Below are positions 4,637 to 34,034 of a stretch of DNA of 37,383 nucleotides, piece after piece; within the stretch, counting starts at the first letter, position 1; each line of letters begins with the position of its first letter. The notes beneath the pieces were generated by a model that saw only the letters and a list, made by a program, of their open reading frames with translations, searched no databases and had not been told where the DNA came from. Source of the DNA: Alphaproteobacteria bacterium (GTDB lineage: Bacteria > Pseudomonadota > Alphaproteobacteria > VGDZ01); contig VGDZ01000025.1 in NCBI GenBank assembly GCA_016869515.1, positions 1-37,383 on the forward strand, in the 5' to 3' direction. Position numbers and translations under genes: made by a program.

Positions 4637-5740
4637 TTACGCCGCGGCCAGCTTGTGGATCAGGTAGTCGAGATTGTCGGTGTCGAAGCCGCCCTCGAAC
4701 TGCGTCAACACGCGGGTGATGACGCGCTGGCGGAAGCGTTCGCGGTCGTTGGGACCGCCGTCATAGCTGGTCTCGCGCGCCACTTCCAACGCCGCCCGGA
4801 TGACGTCGTGGAAACGCCGCGGGATGGCCGAACGCTCGAGCAGCGAGTTGATCCCGCGCCCGCTCATGTCGTTGAGCAGCAGGTAGACGTTGCCGGGCGA
4901 GACGTTGGTCAGCCTGGCGATGGCGGATTCGAAGAACAGGATGTCGCCCATGCACAGCGCGCGCACGACGATGGTCGGCGTCAGCCGCTTGTTGGCATGC
5001 AGCTGGTCGACCAGCGCGTCGATGGTGAAGCGGTCGGCATCGGCCGACAAGAGCGAGATGGTGGCGCGCTCGCGCGCCTGCAGGATCAGATCGGTGGCCA
5101 TGCTCTCGGGCAGCTGATGGCGCGTCACCAGCTCGTCGCGCAGCCGCTGCGAGACCTTGGCCACCAGCCGCTCGGACACCGCCACCGGCAGCGTCCGGCG
5201 ATGCACGATCGCGGCGCCGACGGTCTCGTCGTTGCCGTGGCGCTCGATCACCTTGACGAAGGTCTTTTCCGAGATCTGGGCGCCGTCATTGGCCATCAGC
5301 GTCGCCACCACCTCGGTCTTGCCGGTGTCGGCCAGCGCGTCCGAGACCTTTTCCGACACCATCGGCCGACGCGCCACCGCCAGCTGCTTGGCGGTGTCGT
5401 TGGTGCGCACCACCTCGAGCAAATCGTCCTCGCTCAACACCGAGGAATAAGTCAGGATCGGCAGCGCCACCGATTCGACGTCCTTAGCCATGGCCTTGGC
5501 GACGTCGCGCGGCACCGCCGGGTTGTCCTTGAGGTTTTCGGCCAGCATCTGGCGGACCTTGACCTCGACGTCGCGCATCATGGCGCGGATGATGTCCTCG
5601 GCCAACTTGCGTTCGGCGTCGGACAGCGGATGCGAAAATTCGCGCGCCACCTTGGCGGCGGTGTCGGCGCGGGTGGTCGAAGACGGATCGTTCAACAGCC
5701 GCTGAACGTCGGCCGGCGTGAGATGGAACTGTTCGGTCAC
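4637..5740 (-). CDS. DUF2336 domain-containing protein
   Basis: A 367-residue cytoplasmic, largely alpha-helical protein of the DUF2336 family, which is almost restricted to Alphaproteobacteria and has no firmly assigned function. The N-terminal half carries HEAT-like helical repeats (for example AEDIIRAMMRDVEVKVRQML and SEKVSDALADTGKTEVVATL). The C-terminal part reads NVSPGNVYLLLNDMSGRGIN, a hallmark of the family. The start is the GTG at 5740, where homology begins and a GGAG precedes; upstream in-frame codons give a low-complexity sequence unlike the family. It lies 52 nt downstream of the TonB-like gene on the same strand, so it may be read through from the riboswitch-controlled transcript. 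Confidence 0.85.
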   Translation of the reverse strand: MTEQFHLTPADVQRLLNDPSSTTRADTAAKVAREFSHPLSDAERKLAEDIIRAMMRDVEVKVRQMLAENLKDNPAVPRDVAKAMAKDVESVALPILTYSSVLSEDDLLEVVRTNDTAKQLAVARRPMVSEKVSDALADTGKTEVVATLMANDGAQISEKTFVKVIERHGNDETVGAAIVHRRTLPVAVSERLVAKVSQRLRDELVTRHQLPESMATDLILQARERATISLLSADADRFTIDALVDQLHANKRLTPTIVVRALCMGDILFFESAIARLTNVSPGNVYLLLNDMSGRGINSLLERSAIPRRFHDVIRAALEVARETSYDGGPNDRERFRQRVITRVLTQFEGGFDTDNLDYLIHKLAAA

Positions 5741-5792
5741 GGATCGGGACTCCAGGCGACTACTTTCGCAAGATTTCCGGCATTTGGCGAGT

Positions 5793-6509
5793 TCAATCTT
5801 GCAGCCGGAAGACGATCGGCACGTCGATCCGGCCGCCGACGGCGTGCCCATCGCGCTCGGCCGGGCGATAGCGCCAGGTGCGCACCGCCGCCTCGGCGGC
5901 GCGGTCCAGCGACGCATGGCCCGAGCTTTCCAACACCTCGGTGCGCTCGGCCCGGCCCTGGGCATCGACCGTCACCCGCATCAGCACCCGGCCCTCGATC
6001 TGGCGCCGCCGTGCCGAAAGCGGATAGGCCGGCGGCTGGCCACCTGCGATCGCCGCCTCGCGCGCCGGGGGCGGGGCGGGCACGGAAGTCGGCGCGGCGA
6101 TCGGGGGCGTAGCCAGGGCGGCCAGGTCTTGCCCTGGGCTGGCGCTGTCCGTCGGCGCTTCGGTCGCGGCAGCGCTTTCGCGCGGGGCGTCGGCGGGCCG
6201 AGCGCGCGGCAAAGGCGGCGTCTTGCGCGTCGCGGCGGGAGGTGGCGGCGGCGCAGGGAGCGGATCGAGGGCGGCGCGTGTCGGGGCCGAAGCGGGCGCA
6301 GGCCTTGTCTGCGGCGCCAAGCTCGGCGGCGCCTCGACGGTGGCTTCGATCGCCGCCGGAACGATCTCGACCACAATGCTCGGCTCGGGATCGGGCGCAA
6401 GATCGCTGGGGCCGGGCCAAGCCCACAACGCCACCCCCAGCGCAGCGCCGTGTCCGGCCGCGGAGCCCAAAGCCGCCAATCCCGAAATCGATCGCCAACC
6501 CGCCGCCAT
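5793..6509 (-). CDS. tonB: TonB family protein, cobalamin-riboswitch controlled
   Basis: A 238-residue protein with TonB layout: a short cytoplasmic start, one membrane helix (about residues 10-32, [21 protein letters not shown]), a long Pro/Ala-rich periplasmic linker (about 45-160), then a C-terminal TonB domain. The domain shows [18 protein letters not shown] and ends in [12 protein letters not shown] and VPIVF. TonB passes energy from ExbBD to outer-membrane receptors. The upstream riboswitch ties this copy to vitamin B12, so a BtuB-type receptor is the likely client. I prefer the ATG at 6509, preceded by GGGA; a GTG at 6536 would add nine non-conserved residues and lie against the riboswitch. 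Confidence 0.85.
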
Positions 6510-6544
6510 TTCGTCCCACCCGACGTCGACGCGCACAGCCTCAG

Positions 6545-6721
6545 CGACGGCAGGTCTCCTGGCTCGCGGGTCGACGCCCTCGGTCCGGCCTTCCCGGGCA
6601 TCGCTGCCCAGTGGCGGTTTGGACCCGGGCTCGCCGCCTACAGTTGCGGGGGCAGCCGCGGCTTGCGATCCGCTCGGATCGGAACCGCATTCCCTTGCAA
6701 ATCCCGTTGCGGGAACCGTCT
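6545..6721 (-). ncRNA. Cobalamin riboswitch
   Basis: Read on the minus strand, this leader carries the cobalamin-aptamer landmarks in order. GGGAATGCGG is near the 5' end. CCCCCGCAACTGTAGG is at 6652-6637. The GCCACTG box is at 6615-6609. A distal arm, GACCCGCGAGCCAGGAGACC followed by TGCC, occupies 6572-6549. Together these define an adenosylcobalamin-type riboswitch. It ends about 35-40 nt before the ATG of the TonB-family gene and lacks an obvious T-run terminator, so control is probably at translation initiation. High B12 would be expected to shut off tonB. Confidence 0.93.
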
Positions 6722-6727
6722 AAACCC

Positions 6728-6755
6728 AGTATGCGACCCGGGATCGGACTGTCAA
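6728..6755 (-). promoter_or_regulatory. Promoter of the riboswitch-tonB transcript
   Basis: A consensus TTGACA (6750-6755, minus strand) is followed after 16 bp by CATACT (6728-6733). The predicted transcription start near 6721 coincides with the 5' end of the riboswitch, which supports both calls. Confidence 0.6.
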
Positions 6756-6778
6756 TCGCGGGGCGCGCGGGGGCCGGG

Positions 6779-7159
6779 ATGCGGACGGTGTTGGCGGCGG
6801 TTTTGGCGGCGACCGGGCTGGCGGGACAGGCCTGGGCCTCGGGCGATGTCGCCAAGGGCGAACGCGTTTTCCAGAAGTGCAAGGCCTGCCACACCATCGA
6901 AGCCGACGGCAAGCACGAGGTCGGACCCAACCTGCATGGCATATTCGGTCGCCGCGCCGGAACGCGCGAGGGCTTCCGCTTTTCGACCGCGTTGACCGAG
7001 CGCGGCAAGGCCGGGCTGAACTGGGACGATGCCGCGCTCGATGCCTATATGGCGGATCCCAAGGGCTACATCCCAGGCAACAAGATGGTGTTCGTCGGCA
7101 TCCGACGCGAAGACGAGCGCCGCGATCTGATCGCCTATCTCAAGCGCGCCGGCGATTAG
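6779..7159 (+). CDS. Class I c-type cytochrome (cytochrome c2/c550-like)
   Basis: A 126-residue periplasmic electron carrier. Signal peptide residues 1-20 end in AWA-SG. Covalent haem site CKACH is at residues 34-38. A mitochondrial-type core follows ([14 protein letters not shown], then [14 protein letters not shown] with the axial Met at about 103) and the C-terminal helix [12 protein letters not shown] start at 6779 because it gives a clean signal peptide; the in-frame ATG at 6731 would overlap the divergent riboswitch promoter. It probably shuttles electrons between the bc1 complex and an oxidase or periplasmic dehydrogenase; nothing nearby names the partner. Confidence 0.9.
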
Positions 7160-7217
7160 GGAGCGTCCCAAGCGCGCCGTCGACTAAGGCCTGCTTGGCG
7201 CGGCGGCGCGGCTTGGG
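7141..7217 (+). repeat. Duplicated cytochrome 3' end with imperfect hairpin
   Basis: The last bases of the cytochrome gene (7141-7160, encoding KRAGD-stop) are repeated with few changes at 7169-7189, where they would encode KRAVD-stop. The second copy also forms the left arm of an imperfect hairpin: 7167-7179 pairs with 7204-7217 with one bulged base around a loop of about 24 nt. No T-run follows, so it is not a standard intrinsic terminator. Confidence 0.5.
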
Positions 7218-7267
7218 CTAGACTCGGACTCGCAAGCGGCGCATCGTGGCGCCGGGGTGGGGGCCGC

Positions 7268-8272
7268 ATGGCTGGCTTCAACGGCAAGAACGGGTTTGCC
7301 TCGTTGGCGGTGGGCGCAACGCTGGCGCTGGCGCCCTATCAGGGGCTCAAAGCGGCCGATTTCGGGCCCGAGCTGTTCCAGGCGGTGGTCAAGCTGGTGG
7401 CCGAAGTGCCCAAGGACGCGCGCTCGGCGCAGACCCTGGGCACGCGGCGCGAAGGCAACGGCGTCGTCATCGACGACAATGGGCTGGTGCTGACCATCGG
7501 CTATCTGATCGTCGAGGCGATGGCGGTGACGCTCGAGGATCATGCCGGCAAGTCTACCGCGGCCGAGATCGTGGGCTATGACCACGACACCGGTTTCGGG
7601 CTGGTGCGGGCCAACGCCCCGCTCGGCGTCAAGCCGCTGCGAATCGGCGATTCGCGCAAGCTCGAAGCCCGCGATCCGGTGTTGGTGATCGGCCATGGCG
7701 GGCCGGACGCCACTGTCGCCGGCGTGGTGATGTCGCGCCGGCTGTTCGCCGGCTATTGGGAGTACATGCTCGAGCGCGCCATCTTCACCAGCCCGCCGCA
7801 CGGCAATTGGGGCGGGACCGCGCTGATCGGCAAGGACGGCACGCTGCTCGGCATCGGCTCGCTGTTCGTCAACGACGCCGCCGACCGCGCCTCGCAGATT
7901 TCGGGCAACATGTTCGTGCCGATTGACCTGTTGAAGCCGATCATGGGCGATCTGCTCAGCGCCGGCCGCCCGAGCGGAGCGCCGCGGCCCTGGCTGGGCA
8001 TGCTGTCGACCGACCAGTTCGGCGTGGTGCTGGTGACCCGCGTCACGCCCGATGCGCCGGCGCACAAGGCGGGCTTGCGGCCGGGCGATGTGGTGGTGGC
8101 GGTGCGCGACAAGCCGGTCAAGTCGGTCGAGGCGTTCTATCGCGCGCTGTGGGCCAGCGGCGAAGCCGGGGTCGAGGTGCCGCTGACGGTGATGCGCCAG
8201 TCCGGCGCGATCGAGGTCGTGGTCAAATCGGCCAGCCGCTACGACTTCATGCAGTTTCGGCGCACCTTCTAG
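7268..8272 (+). CDS. HtrA/S1C-like pseudoprotease with PDZ domain
   Basis: A 334-residue exported protein: signal or anchor segment (about 1-30), trypsin-like domain (about 35-230) and one C-terminal PDZ domain (about 240-322, with HKAGLRPGDVVVAVRDKPV). The fold follows DegP/HtrA, but the triad is gone. The TNAHV segment reads LTIGYLIVE, with Tyr79 where His belongs. The S/T-D-I-A segment reads DHDTGFGL, with Gly109 for Asp. GNSGG reads GNWGG, with Trp181 for Ser. It is therefore probably a non-catalytic chaperone, sensor or scaffold in the periplasm. The start has a G-rich ribosome site (GGGGTGGGGG). It has no obvious operon partner. Confidence 0.82.
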   Translation: MAGFNGKNGFASLAVGATLALAPYQGLKAADFGPELFQAVVKLVAEVPKDARSAQTLGTRREGNGVVIDDNGLVLTIGYLIVEAMAVTLEDHAGKSTAAEIVGYDHDTGFGLVRANAPLGVKPLRIGDSRKLEARDPVLVIGHGGPDATVAGVVMSRRLFAGYWEYMLERAIFTSPPHGNWGGTALIGKDGTLLGIGSLFVNDAADRASQISGNMFVPIDLLKPIMGDLLSAGRPSGAPRPWLGMLSTDQFGVVLVTRVTPDAPAHKAGLRPGDVVVAVRDKPVKSVEAFYRALWASGEAGVEVPLTVMRQSGAIEVVVKSASRYDFMQFRRTF

Positions 8273-8312
8273 GCCGCGCCGCCGATCGTAATAGTCCGAA
8301 AAGCGAGGATCG

Positions 8313-10031
8313 GTGGCGGGGGCGGAACCCTATCTGTTCATTGCGGTGAGCGATCCCGAGCTGACGGCCGAGATCAAGCGCGCCGTCGGCGAGGGTCGGC
8401 TGGCGGCCGAGGTGGCGCCGATTCCCGATCCGACGCTGATCCGGGCGCTGGTCAATTCCGGGCGCTACGACGTGCTGGTGATCGATGCGGCGCTGGCCTT
8501 GGCCGAGGACCGCGCGCTGTTGCGCGTCGCCGAGACCGTCGACACCGCGGTGGTGCCGATCGGCGACGATCCCGAACTGCTCGACGCCTGTCGCGAGATG
8601 GGGGCGGGCGAGGGACTGTCGCCGAAAGGGATCGACGCTCGCGCCCTCAAGTTGGCGGCGCGCGCCGCCCGTCGCCTGACCCAGGCCGAAAAGCGCGCCC
8701 GCGGCGCCGAGGACAGGCTCGCCCGCCATATCGGCTTCGATGACCTGACCGGATTGCCCAACCGCGCCCTCTTCACCGACCGTCTGCAGCAGGCGATCTC
8801 GTACTGCCAACGCGAGCAGCAGTCGCTGGCGGTGATGCTGCTCGACATCAACCGCTTTCGCGACGTCAACGCCGGCCACGGCCGGCCGATCGGCGATCGC
8901 GTGCTGCAGGAGGTCGGCATCCGCCTGCGCACCAAGCTGCGCGAATCCGATTCGATCGGTCGCATCGGCGCCGATCGCTTCGCGGCGCTGTTGCCGACCG
9001 GCGCCACGCTGCACGGCGCGCTGAATGCGGCCGGCAAGTTGGTCGAATCGCTGCGCGCCCCGATCGTGGTCGGCTCTTCGCGGCTGACGCCGACCATGGC
9101 GGTCGGCATCTCGCTCTATCCGGCGCATGGCGATTCGCCCCAGCTGCTGCTCGATCGTGCCACCCAGGCCCTGGCCGAGGCCAAGGCGACGCGCGGCGGG
9201 TTGGTGGTCTATGGCGGCGCCGATGGCGGTCCCGACATCGGCCCGCTGGCGCTGGCCGGCGAACTGCGTCAGGCCATCGCCCAGGGCGAGCTGTTCCTGA
9301 GCTACCAGCCCAAGGTGCAGATGGCGACCGGCAAGCCGGCCGGGGTCGAGGCGCTGGTGCGCTGGCGCCATCCCAGCCGCGGCCTGATCATGCCCGACGT
9401 GTTCGTGCCGCTGGCCGAGCGCACCGGCTCGATCAACCCGCTGACCCATCATGTGCTCGACCTCGCCTTGGGCCATATCGCGGAACTGCTGCGCCAGGGC
9501 CACGACCTGCACGTCTCGGTCAATCTCTCGGCGGTGTCGCTGCATGATGTCGACTTGCCGGGTCGGATCGGGGATCTGCTGCGCAAATGGCAGGTGCGGC
9601 CGGATCATCTGGTGCTGGAGCTGACCGAGACCGCGATCATCAACGACACCGCGCGCGCGGTCGAGGTGGCGCGGCGTCTCAAGGCCATGGGCATGACCAT
9701 CGCCATCGACGACTTCGGCACCGGTCACACCTCCTTCGCCTATGTCCGTTCGCTGCCGGTGGGCGAGATCAAGATCGACAAGTCTTTCGTGCAGTCGATG
9801 GGCGGCTCGGCCGAGGACAAGACCATCGTCCGGCTGGTGGTCGAAATGGCTCAGACCCTGGGCCTCAAGGTGGTGGCCGAGGGGGTCGAGGATCTGGCCA
9901 CCTGGGACACGCTGGTCGATTTCGGTTGCACGATGGCGCAGGGCTACTACGTCAGCCGGCCGCTCGACGCCGAGGCGCTGGCCGAATGGCTGGCGCCGCC
10001 GGGCTGGTCCCCGGGCGGCGGGCCAGCCTGA
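8313..10031 (+). CDS. GGDEF-EAL protein, probable c-di-GMP phosphodiesterase
   Basis: A 572-residue cytoplasmic signalling protein. Residues 1-125 look like a degenerate response-receiver domain, followed by a helical linker. The GGDEF domain (about 140-300) opens with DDLTGLPNRALF, but its active-site loop is GADRF (219-223), so cyclase activity is unlikely. The EAL domain (about 315-560) is complete: EALVRW at 346, NLS, ELTET, DDFGTG, KIDKSF, AEGVE and QGYY. It should hydrolyse c-di-GMP, with the dead GGDEF as a possible GTP-sensing regulator. The start is GTG, five bases after GAGG. The next gene follows by 16 nt. Confidence 0.88.
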   Translation: MAGAEPYLFIAVSDPELTAEIKRAVGEGRLAAEVAPIPDPTLIRALVNSGRYDVLVIDAALALAEDRALLRVAETVDTAVVPIGDDPELLDACREMGAGEGLSPKGIDARALKLAARAARRLTQAEKRARGAEDRLARHIGFDDLTGLPNRALFTDRLQQAISYCQREQQSLAVMLLDINRFRDVNAGHGRPIGDRVLQEVGIRLRTKLRESDSIGRIGADRFAALLPTGATLHGALNAAGKLVESLRAPIVVGSSRLTPTMAVGISLYPAHGDSPQLLLDRATQALAEAKATRGGLVVYGGADGGPDIGPLALAGELRQAIAQGELFLSYQPKVQMATGKPAGVEALVRWRHPSRGLIMPDVFVPLAERTGSINPLTHHVLDLALGHIAELLRQGHDLHVSVNLSAVSLHDVDLPGRIGDLLRKWQVRPDHLVLELTETAIINDTARAVEVARRLKAMGMTIAIDDFGTGHTSFAYVRSLPVGEIKIDKSFVQSMGGSAEDKTIVRLVVEMAQTLGLKVVAEGVEDLATWDTLVDFGCTMAQGYYVSRPLDAEALAEWLAPPGWSPGGGPA

Positions 10032-32586: not shown

Positions 32587-32675
32587 TTAACGAATGTTAA
32601 GAAATTATTGTAGATAGCCAATTTTCATCGATGCGCCAAAGAGTCCGGTTTAGCCATTGCTAGGGTGAGTTCGAT

Positions 32676-32897
32676 TTACCCTGCCGACTTGTAGTACGAA
32701 CGAAATGCCGGATCAGTCGTTTGCTCCCACTTATTGCCGCTTCCCTGTTCACGCCTGCCGAAGGGAACTCTCGGGGCGGTTTTTGTGTTTGCACGGTTGG
32801 CCCTAGCTTTCTTAACTTTTTTTTGTAAGCGTAGGAACTCCTCCTTGTCTAAGTGAGGATTTTTTTTGAGGAGACTCTCTAGGTCCAGCTTTTCCAT
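32676..32897 (-). CDS. Small basic protein of unknown function
   Basis: A 73-residue protein, unrecognised. The N-terminal half is an amphipathic, strongly charged helix (LDLESLLKKNPHLDKEEFL, then RLQKKVKKARANR). The C-terminal half is polar, with PRVPFGRREQGSG and an aromatic end (FRSYYKSAG). The ATG at 32897 is chosen because AAGGGG precedes it by the right distance; an ATG at 32921 overlaps the upstream gene but lacks a ribosome site. It lies 13 nt after the end of the protease frame, so the two form a pair. Adaptor, substrate or regulator are all possible. Confidence 0.55.
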   Translation of the reverse strand: MEKLDLESLLKKNPHLDKEEFLRLQKKVKKARANRANTKTAPRVPFGRREQGSGNKWEQTTDPAFRSYYKSAG

Positions 32898-32910
32898 TGG
32901 CCGCCCCTTC

Positions 32911-33794
32911 TCAACCTGCAATCAATGGTGAGAAGCCACTTTTGGTATGCACGACACTTAAGTGGCGCATTTTGGACATATAGTCAATTAGTAGCCCGTG
33001 GTAGCCCCGGATGGCGTCTCGCCTACTTTTTGGCTGCCCGAAATCGTCAATTTTGAGTTTCAGTTCATCCCGTAGTTGACGCATATTTATTCCCATGCCA
33101 TGCGAATTCCAGCGCTTTATGTCGTTTAGTTTTTTCGCTATCTCTTTGGCGCGATCTCGCTTCATTTTATCGGTTACTGGCCTGGCACGTGTTTCTGTAG
33201 TGTTCCAATTCTTCCACTTATATTTACAAAGCCACTCCACGAGCAAAGAAATTGATAAATCACGAGCTTGCTCGTAGGAATAAAGTTGACCCTGATCAAA
33301 CTCCATCAATATAGATAACTCTGCATGAGTAATTTTACCTTTGTTTGCTTTTTTCAATAATTCATTATATTTTACCAAATACCCAAGGGCTGGAATTAGT
33401 TTTTTGTCTTTATTTTCAATTTGTGGATCTATTGGACCAAGAATGGAGTAGTAATCCATATGAATCGCATCGCCAGACATAACCAGTATTGTCCCTGCAG
33501 ATAATGCGTAATTCGGAACTATAAACTCGACGGTACTATAATGGTGCCTAAGAGTATCGGATATTCTTCTCGCTGTTTCTGAAAAACCGCCAGCAGTTTC
33601 AATAATAAAAACTAATTTTCTCTTTTGTTTTCGATAGACTCTATGGCATCTCTAATATCATCATCTGCTCCAAATGCGATTGGGCCGACATAAGTGATAC
33701 AATCGCAATCATATAATTTTTCTATGTTCCCCAAATATGCCAAGAGTTGTCTCTCAACTATCCTATTCGCGTCAATGTTGGGTCTGTTCGCCAT
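32911..33794 (-). pseudogene. ClpP-fold serine protease of the SDH_sah type, broken by a frameshift
   Basis: Two frames together make one protein. 33794-33612 gives MANRPNIDANRIVERQLLAY... and VGPIAFGADDDIRDAIESIENK, then stops. A second frame continues from about 33626 with KLVFIIETAGGFSETARRIS, TLRHHYSTVEFIVPNYALSA and GTILVMSGDAIHMDYYSILG, ending at 32911. The order and motifs fit the serine dehydrogenase proteinase family (PF01972; SppA/ClpP fold), with the nucleophile in ALSAGT. One extra A in either A4 run (33616-33619 or 33623-33626) would restore a single frame of about 294 codons. It is a recent mutation or a homopolymer sequencing error. The C-terminal third is Lys-rich and helical. 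Confidence 0.75.
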
Positions 33795-34034
33795 TGTGTC
33801 ATAGATCCGAGGTTCGAAAGAGCTACCGCTTGGAGATTGCCTGTACGCCTACAACTAAGGTAATGCGTGCATATCATAAGTAGCGTAGTTAGAACAATGC
33901 ACTTCATCCTAAGGATCGATAATTACGAGCGTTACCATGGCACGAAAATAAGCTCATTTATTCTCTTTGTTTTTTTTGCTGGCCGCAAGGCCTCTGCGAT
34001 GCTGTCATGGGCCGCGAGGGGTGGCGGAGGCGCG

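Follow-up and report, generated by a model that had tools for sequence, protein, structure and literature searches.

A predicted ClpP-fold protease and its dedicated small partner: a candidate mobile phage-exclusion cassette

The stretch of alphaproteobacterial DNA analysed here (the window, 37,383 nt) carries two frames that look like the halves of one serine protease, followed by a small gene, both within a short AT-rich insert. What is such a pair for, and how did it come to stand there? The question is of some interest since, to our knowledge, proteases of the SDH type have no settled role in bacteria. The answer favoured here, at a probability of roughly one half, is a mobile phage-exclusion cassette, with the protease as effector and the small protein as regulator, a function that is inferred from the location of related pairs.

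A split protease gene in an AT-rich insert

The insert holding the pair spans positions 32590-33990 (a feature without strand, whose ends are approximate and set by the drop in GC), and its GC content, taken from the window composition, is about 40-45%, against about 69% in the surroundings. The ORF check revealed no further plausible gene in the insert besides the pair, and neither a transposase nor an integrase is found among the 25 listed of the window's 32 Pfam families. The pair stands alone in foreign-type DNA, as the initial annotation had it. No tRNA occurs in the whole window, and no convincing terminal repeats, insertion ends or target duplications were seen around the insert.

The protease is encoded in two minus-strand frames. 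Frame 1 (33612-33794) provides the N-terminal part, 60 amino acids with an early stop at the end, and frame 2 (32911-33618) the remainder, of which 235 amino acids are used and which holds the putative Ser-Asp-His triad. The initial annotation had joined them into one SDH-type protease, and comparison with the intact protease of Azospirillum melinis (locus L003) agrees with this. Frame 1 matches its residues 11-59 with 57% identity over 49 residues (E 8e-19, in a single comparison), and frame 2 continues at residue 60 with no gap and matches residues 60-291 ungapped, the joined frames being 65% identical to the intact protein overall. The N-terminal frame thereby belongs to the family; this placement relies on close relatives rather than on Pfam, because the Pfam match is largely confined to residues 60-130.

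Both frames appear to be under purifying selection (pN of 0.29 and 0.24, with silent sites close to saturation at a pS of about 0.9), and the break is therefore either recent or a sequencing error. The latter, which would leave the gene intact in the organism and is compatible with any reading of its function, is somewhat doubtful. Conservation of both frames and their exact junction at a single point, in a draft genome of 166 contigs, would suit an error; nevertheless, an A4 run is atypical as a site of short-read error, and the same protease is independently broken in other genomes. Programmed frameshifting was also considered, and rejected, as the junction is devoid of a canonical slippery heptamer and intact relatives read through in one frame.

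In profile searches, PF01972 (SDH_protease; curated cut-off 31.3) matches the joined protein with 65 bits, while the 250-bit cut-off of the equivalog NF047768 (Clp_like_SDH) is reached neither by the window protein (71 bits) nor by that of L003 (75 bits). The subfamily as a whole scores 65-75 bits against SDH profiles, far under the NF047768 cut-off, and its C-terminal half is its own, unlike that of the PF01972/NF047768 proteases. The letters 'SDH' in the name of PF01972 presumably stand for the Ser-Asp-His order of the catalytic residues. Across 53 proteases, Ser99, Asp123 and His232 (numbered as in L003) are invariant and stand in this order; they constitute the putative triad. All three are retained in the window protease, on the minus strand: the Ser lies in ALSAGT, where the nucleophile had been placed from the start (33499-33501, the codon reading from 33501 to 33499), the Asp in GPIDPQ (33427-33429), and the His in WNSHG (33100-33102), the latter outside the best Pfam stretch. 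The predicted structure of the L003 protein is a confident model (pLDDT 93.7, pTM 0.90) with a ClpP-like fold, its best PDB matches being the 1510-N protease and ClpP. Escherichia coli members are named 'SDH family Clp fold serine proteinase' in RefSeq, and the E. coli-type protease matches the PHROGs family phrog_11747 (E 2e-99). The window copy is the only one above the family cut-off in its genome.

The small partner gene

The small gene (32676-32897, minus strand; 73 amino acids from the ATG) has its own ribosome site, as first annotated: a Shine-Dalgarno-like GAAGGGG at 32904-32910 on the minus strand, 6 nt upstream of the start, recognized from the sequence. Such partners were counted at loci taken from viral contigs, plasmids and genomes alike; an ORF qualified if it had an ATG start, a length of 50-85 codons and a first base in the interval from -20 to +60 nt relative to the protease stop. 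One is found at 51 of the 54 distinct subfamily loci, against 110 of 647 (17%) for the remaining genes at these loci and two of 18 for more distant SDH proteases. Three subfamily loci lack it: the phage contigs L036 and L038, and L011, a Rhizobium copy with a frameshift. The small protein is, thus, a dedicated partner of the protease, with a gene that adjoins the protease stop or, often, overlaps it (starts at -4, -8 and -17). Homologues do carry the small downstream gene, as the initial annotation required; its description of the partner as basic does not extend to the family, in which the pI spans 4.2-11.3.

The small proteins (56-79 amino acids) are highly divergent. Most keep an N-terminal helix, a M-I-x-x-L-x-x-x-G-(L/F)-like stretch and a tail of the form P-x-(F/Y)-x-L-A-x-(G/S)-P. 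In the window protein, which is 31% identical to the L003 partner (E 3e-10, single comparison), this tail is poorly kept (TAPRVPFGRR). The structural model is weak (pLDDT 70.7), with two short helices and an unstructured tail. Searches of Pfam and NCBIfam gave sub-threshold matches only, and no match to the Rex families was obtained. The E. coli-type small protein matches phrog_28875 (E 2e-30); PHROGs does not cover the alphaproteobacterial ones. Neither the protease nor the small protein is fitted by any PADLOC model (library of 2023).

A different small protein, recognizable by a GKNPAAVALGRLGG...ARAxxL...KARW-like sequence and belonging to no Pfam family, is encoded directly upstream of the protease at several loci (L003:5723-5974, L005:5771-5977, L008, L009, L014 and L044), overlapping the protease start in L003. 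It is absent from the window and from the E. coli phages.

Decay of the pair was seen at several loci. The protease is broken or gone, and the small gene whole, in the window and at L008, L021 and L104. In E. coli locus L102 (5014-5184), the protease is deleted and an intact small gene is kept behind the repressor; the same deletion is present on viral contigs L115-L119, an allele thereby shared among enterobacterial prophages. Two further matches (H54 and H55) cover the small gene only, and both genes are damaged in L011 and L013. Such a pattern fits a costly protease, although the protease is fivefold longer than its partner, which could account for the trend just as well. Loss asymmetry was, therefore, discarded as proof of an antitoxin: it is not significant given the lengths, and gene length alone could account for it.

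This bears on an unlikely alternative, a stability module resembling toxin-antitoxin systems, in which a toxic protease and a small antitoxin would maintain the elements that carry them (prophages, plasmids, islands) and would have no action on phages. Two coupled and mobile genes, one of them small, would suit it, as would the loss of the protease next to an intact small gene (window, L008, L021, L104, L102 and L115-L119), if the fivefold longer protease did not predict that loss as well. The gene order, with the protease first and the small gene second, argues against it, and so does the place behind prophage repressors, which points to superinfection rather than segregation.

Prophages, chromosomes and the movement of the pair

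In IMG/VR, 122 contigs encode relatives. The gene upstream of the pair in prophages is usually a CI/LexA-type repressor: of 33 distinct neighbours, 23 contain Peptidase_S24 and 21 HTH_3. In many cases, a divergent gene of cro size lies on the far side of the repressor. The gene order in annotated E. coli prophages is cro, cI, protease, small gene, one of them having an additional small ORF after cI. Among 5426 complete E. coli genomes, 20 match, 17 of them over most of the pair.

Four alternative occupants of this slot were sampled (L105-L108). In three of the sampled strains, the same E. coli phage backbone carries a methylase and a BsuBI/PstI-type endonuclease there, beside a repressor near-identical or related to that found beside the pair; one further strain has a restriction-modification remnant. 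This suggests that, in this backbone, defence genes are exchanged at the site behind the repressor. Slots behind repressors also accept genes without a defence role. In many other bacteria, the pair occupies the region in which prophages place genes against competing phages, and it is thus a candidate for an anti-phage system not yet studied. The initial annotation had seen in it the pattern of a small defence or stress cassette, and the prophage immunity regions, with their rexAB position and restriction-modification genes in the same E. coli slot, lend good circumstantial support to a defence cassette; the chromosomal copies examined do not, since they lie among housekeeping genes and not in defence islands.

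The pair is not tied to one repressor. Distance matrices of the protease and the small protein agree (rho 0.82), whereas those of the protease and the repressor barely do (0.27), and identical protease pairs are found beside repressors of only 19-25% identity. The pair is therefore a cassette whose two genes travelled together from one immunity region to another, and its spread is best explained by temperate phages for the most part. A role as lysogeny regulator like ImmA of ICEBs1, in which the protease would cut the neighbouring repressor or an antirepressor and thereby control induction, is favoured by the adjoining repressor of many prophages. It is weakened because the pair is independent of the repressor, with identical protease pairs beside unrelated repressors and disagreeing trees, and because most of these repressors possess their own S24 autocleavage domain, the normal means of self-cleavage of such repressors. 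Chromosomal copies and the window copy, moreover, have no adjacent repressor, and this role is quite improbable.

Outside phages, copies lying among housekeeping genes, much like that of the window, occur in metagenome-assembled genomes of Planctomycetota, Acidobacteriota and Actinomycetota, as well as in Alphaproteobacteria. No defence islands were seen around the chromosomal copies examined; PADLOC matches near them were set aside, as they look like generic helicases, kinases and regulators. The pair is rare: besides the window genome, two of 95 class relatives and one of 398 phylum members match (E 1e-20). The copy in the window is best explained as a degraded, horizontally acquired version of the two-gene cassette. 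It is a lone AT-rich remnant and probably inactive, because the protease is broken and the small gene alone is whole.

These settings also bear on a protease of head maturation or general quality control, with no part in defence, which is highly improbable. The weak profile matches to ClpP-related head maturation proteases would favour it, but they remain far below the cut-off, the gene lies in the immunity region rather than in a head operon, and standalone chromosomal copies exist.

Two other contexts were observed. On Rhizobium plasmids L011, L012 and L013, a bacterial ubiquitin-like operon precedes the protease in the same direction (about 5050-8860); it is composed of a multiubiquitin with an E2-like domain, a ThiF/JAB protein and DUF6527, and was seen in this lineage only. 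Gene 31 of Gordonia phage BeeGee (L017:4812-5774), a temperate actinophage, stands with the tail genes on one side and the integrase on the other, and encodes a distant SDH protease without a small partner.

Proposed action and comparison with known systems

Among the readings considered, phage exclusion ranks first in likelihood, followed by a stability module, a lysogeny regulator and, lastly, a head or housekeeping protease. Phage exclusion could proceed as follows. The pair would be transcribed together with the repressor in lysogens, and would exclude other phages. Control of the protease would fall to the small protein, most likely through binding by the conserved P-x-(F/Y)-x-L tail of the latter, which would keep the protease inactive; infection would then disturb the complex and activate the protease, and the freed enzyme would cut a host or phage protein, by which the infection would be stopped. 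That the small protein acts as an inhibitor is a guess, and an activator or an adaptor fits the data equally. A fuller version of phage exclusion is offered more tentatively: an undescribed anti-phage system, in which a ClpP-fold protease of the Ser-Asp-His type is held by its own small inhibitor and released by infection, and which is carried behind prophage repressors as a cassette open to exchange, besides standing alone in chromosomes of several bacterial phyla.

The literature, searched with few subscription papers and no preprints, contains nothing that links SDH proteases to phages or to phage defence. If true, phage exclusion by the pair would constitute a new effector type for prophage exclusion, and phrog_11747 and phrog_28875 would obtain a function. 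The defence reading lends itself to a specific and inexpensive test in laboratory E. coli, thanks to the dedicated partner, the joint transfer of the two genes and a slot in which restriction-modification genes can stand instead.

Several known families and systems can be compared with the pair. With the proteases of PF01972 and NF047768, the protease shares the predicted ClpP-like fold and the core motif, with the nucleophilic Ser and the Asp of GPIDPQ; it differs by its dedicated partner, which only two of the 18 more distant SDH proteases have. In PHROGs, the families of the E. coli-type protease and small protein are both function-unknown entries, and are not described as a pair.

By position, the closest comparison is RexAB. 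Defence of this type is known from the slot behind the prophage repressor in phage lambda and in the Pseudomonas putida prophage P1 (PMC12894663), and other immunity-region systems are near precedents by position only (PMC12724215). RexAB likewise consists of two genes directly behind a prophage repressor, a likeness that holds for the prophage relatives and not for the copy in the window, since the latter lies outside a prophage. It combines a DNA-binding sensor, RexA, with a membrane protein, RexB, whereas the pair described here combines a ClpP-fold protease with a soluble small protein, and position alone is shared. ImmA of ICEBs1, a metalloprotease, is paired with its repressor, ImmR. ImmR-ImmA resembles the pair in having a protease gene beside a repressor on a mobile element, but the protease and small gene described here form a pair that is independent of the repressor.
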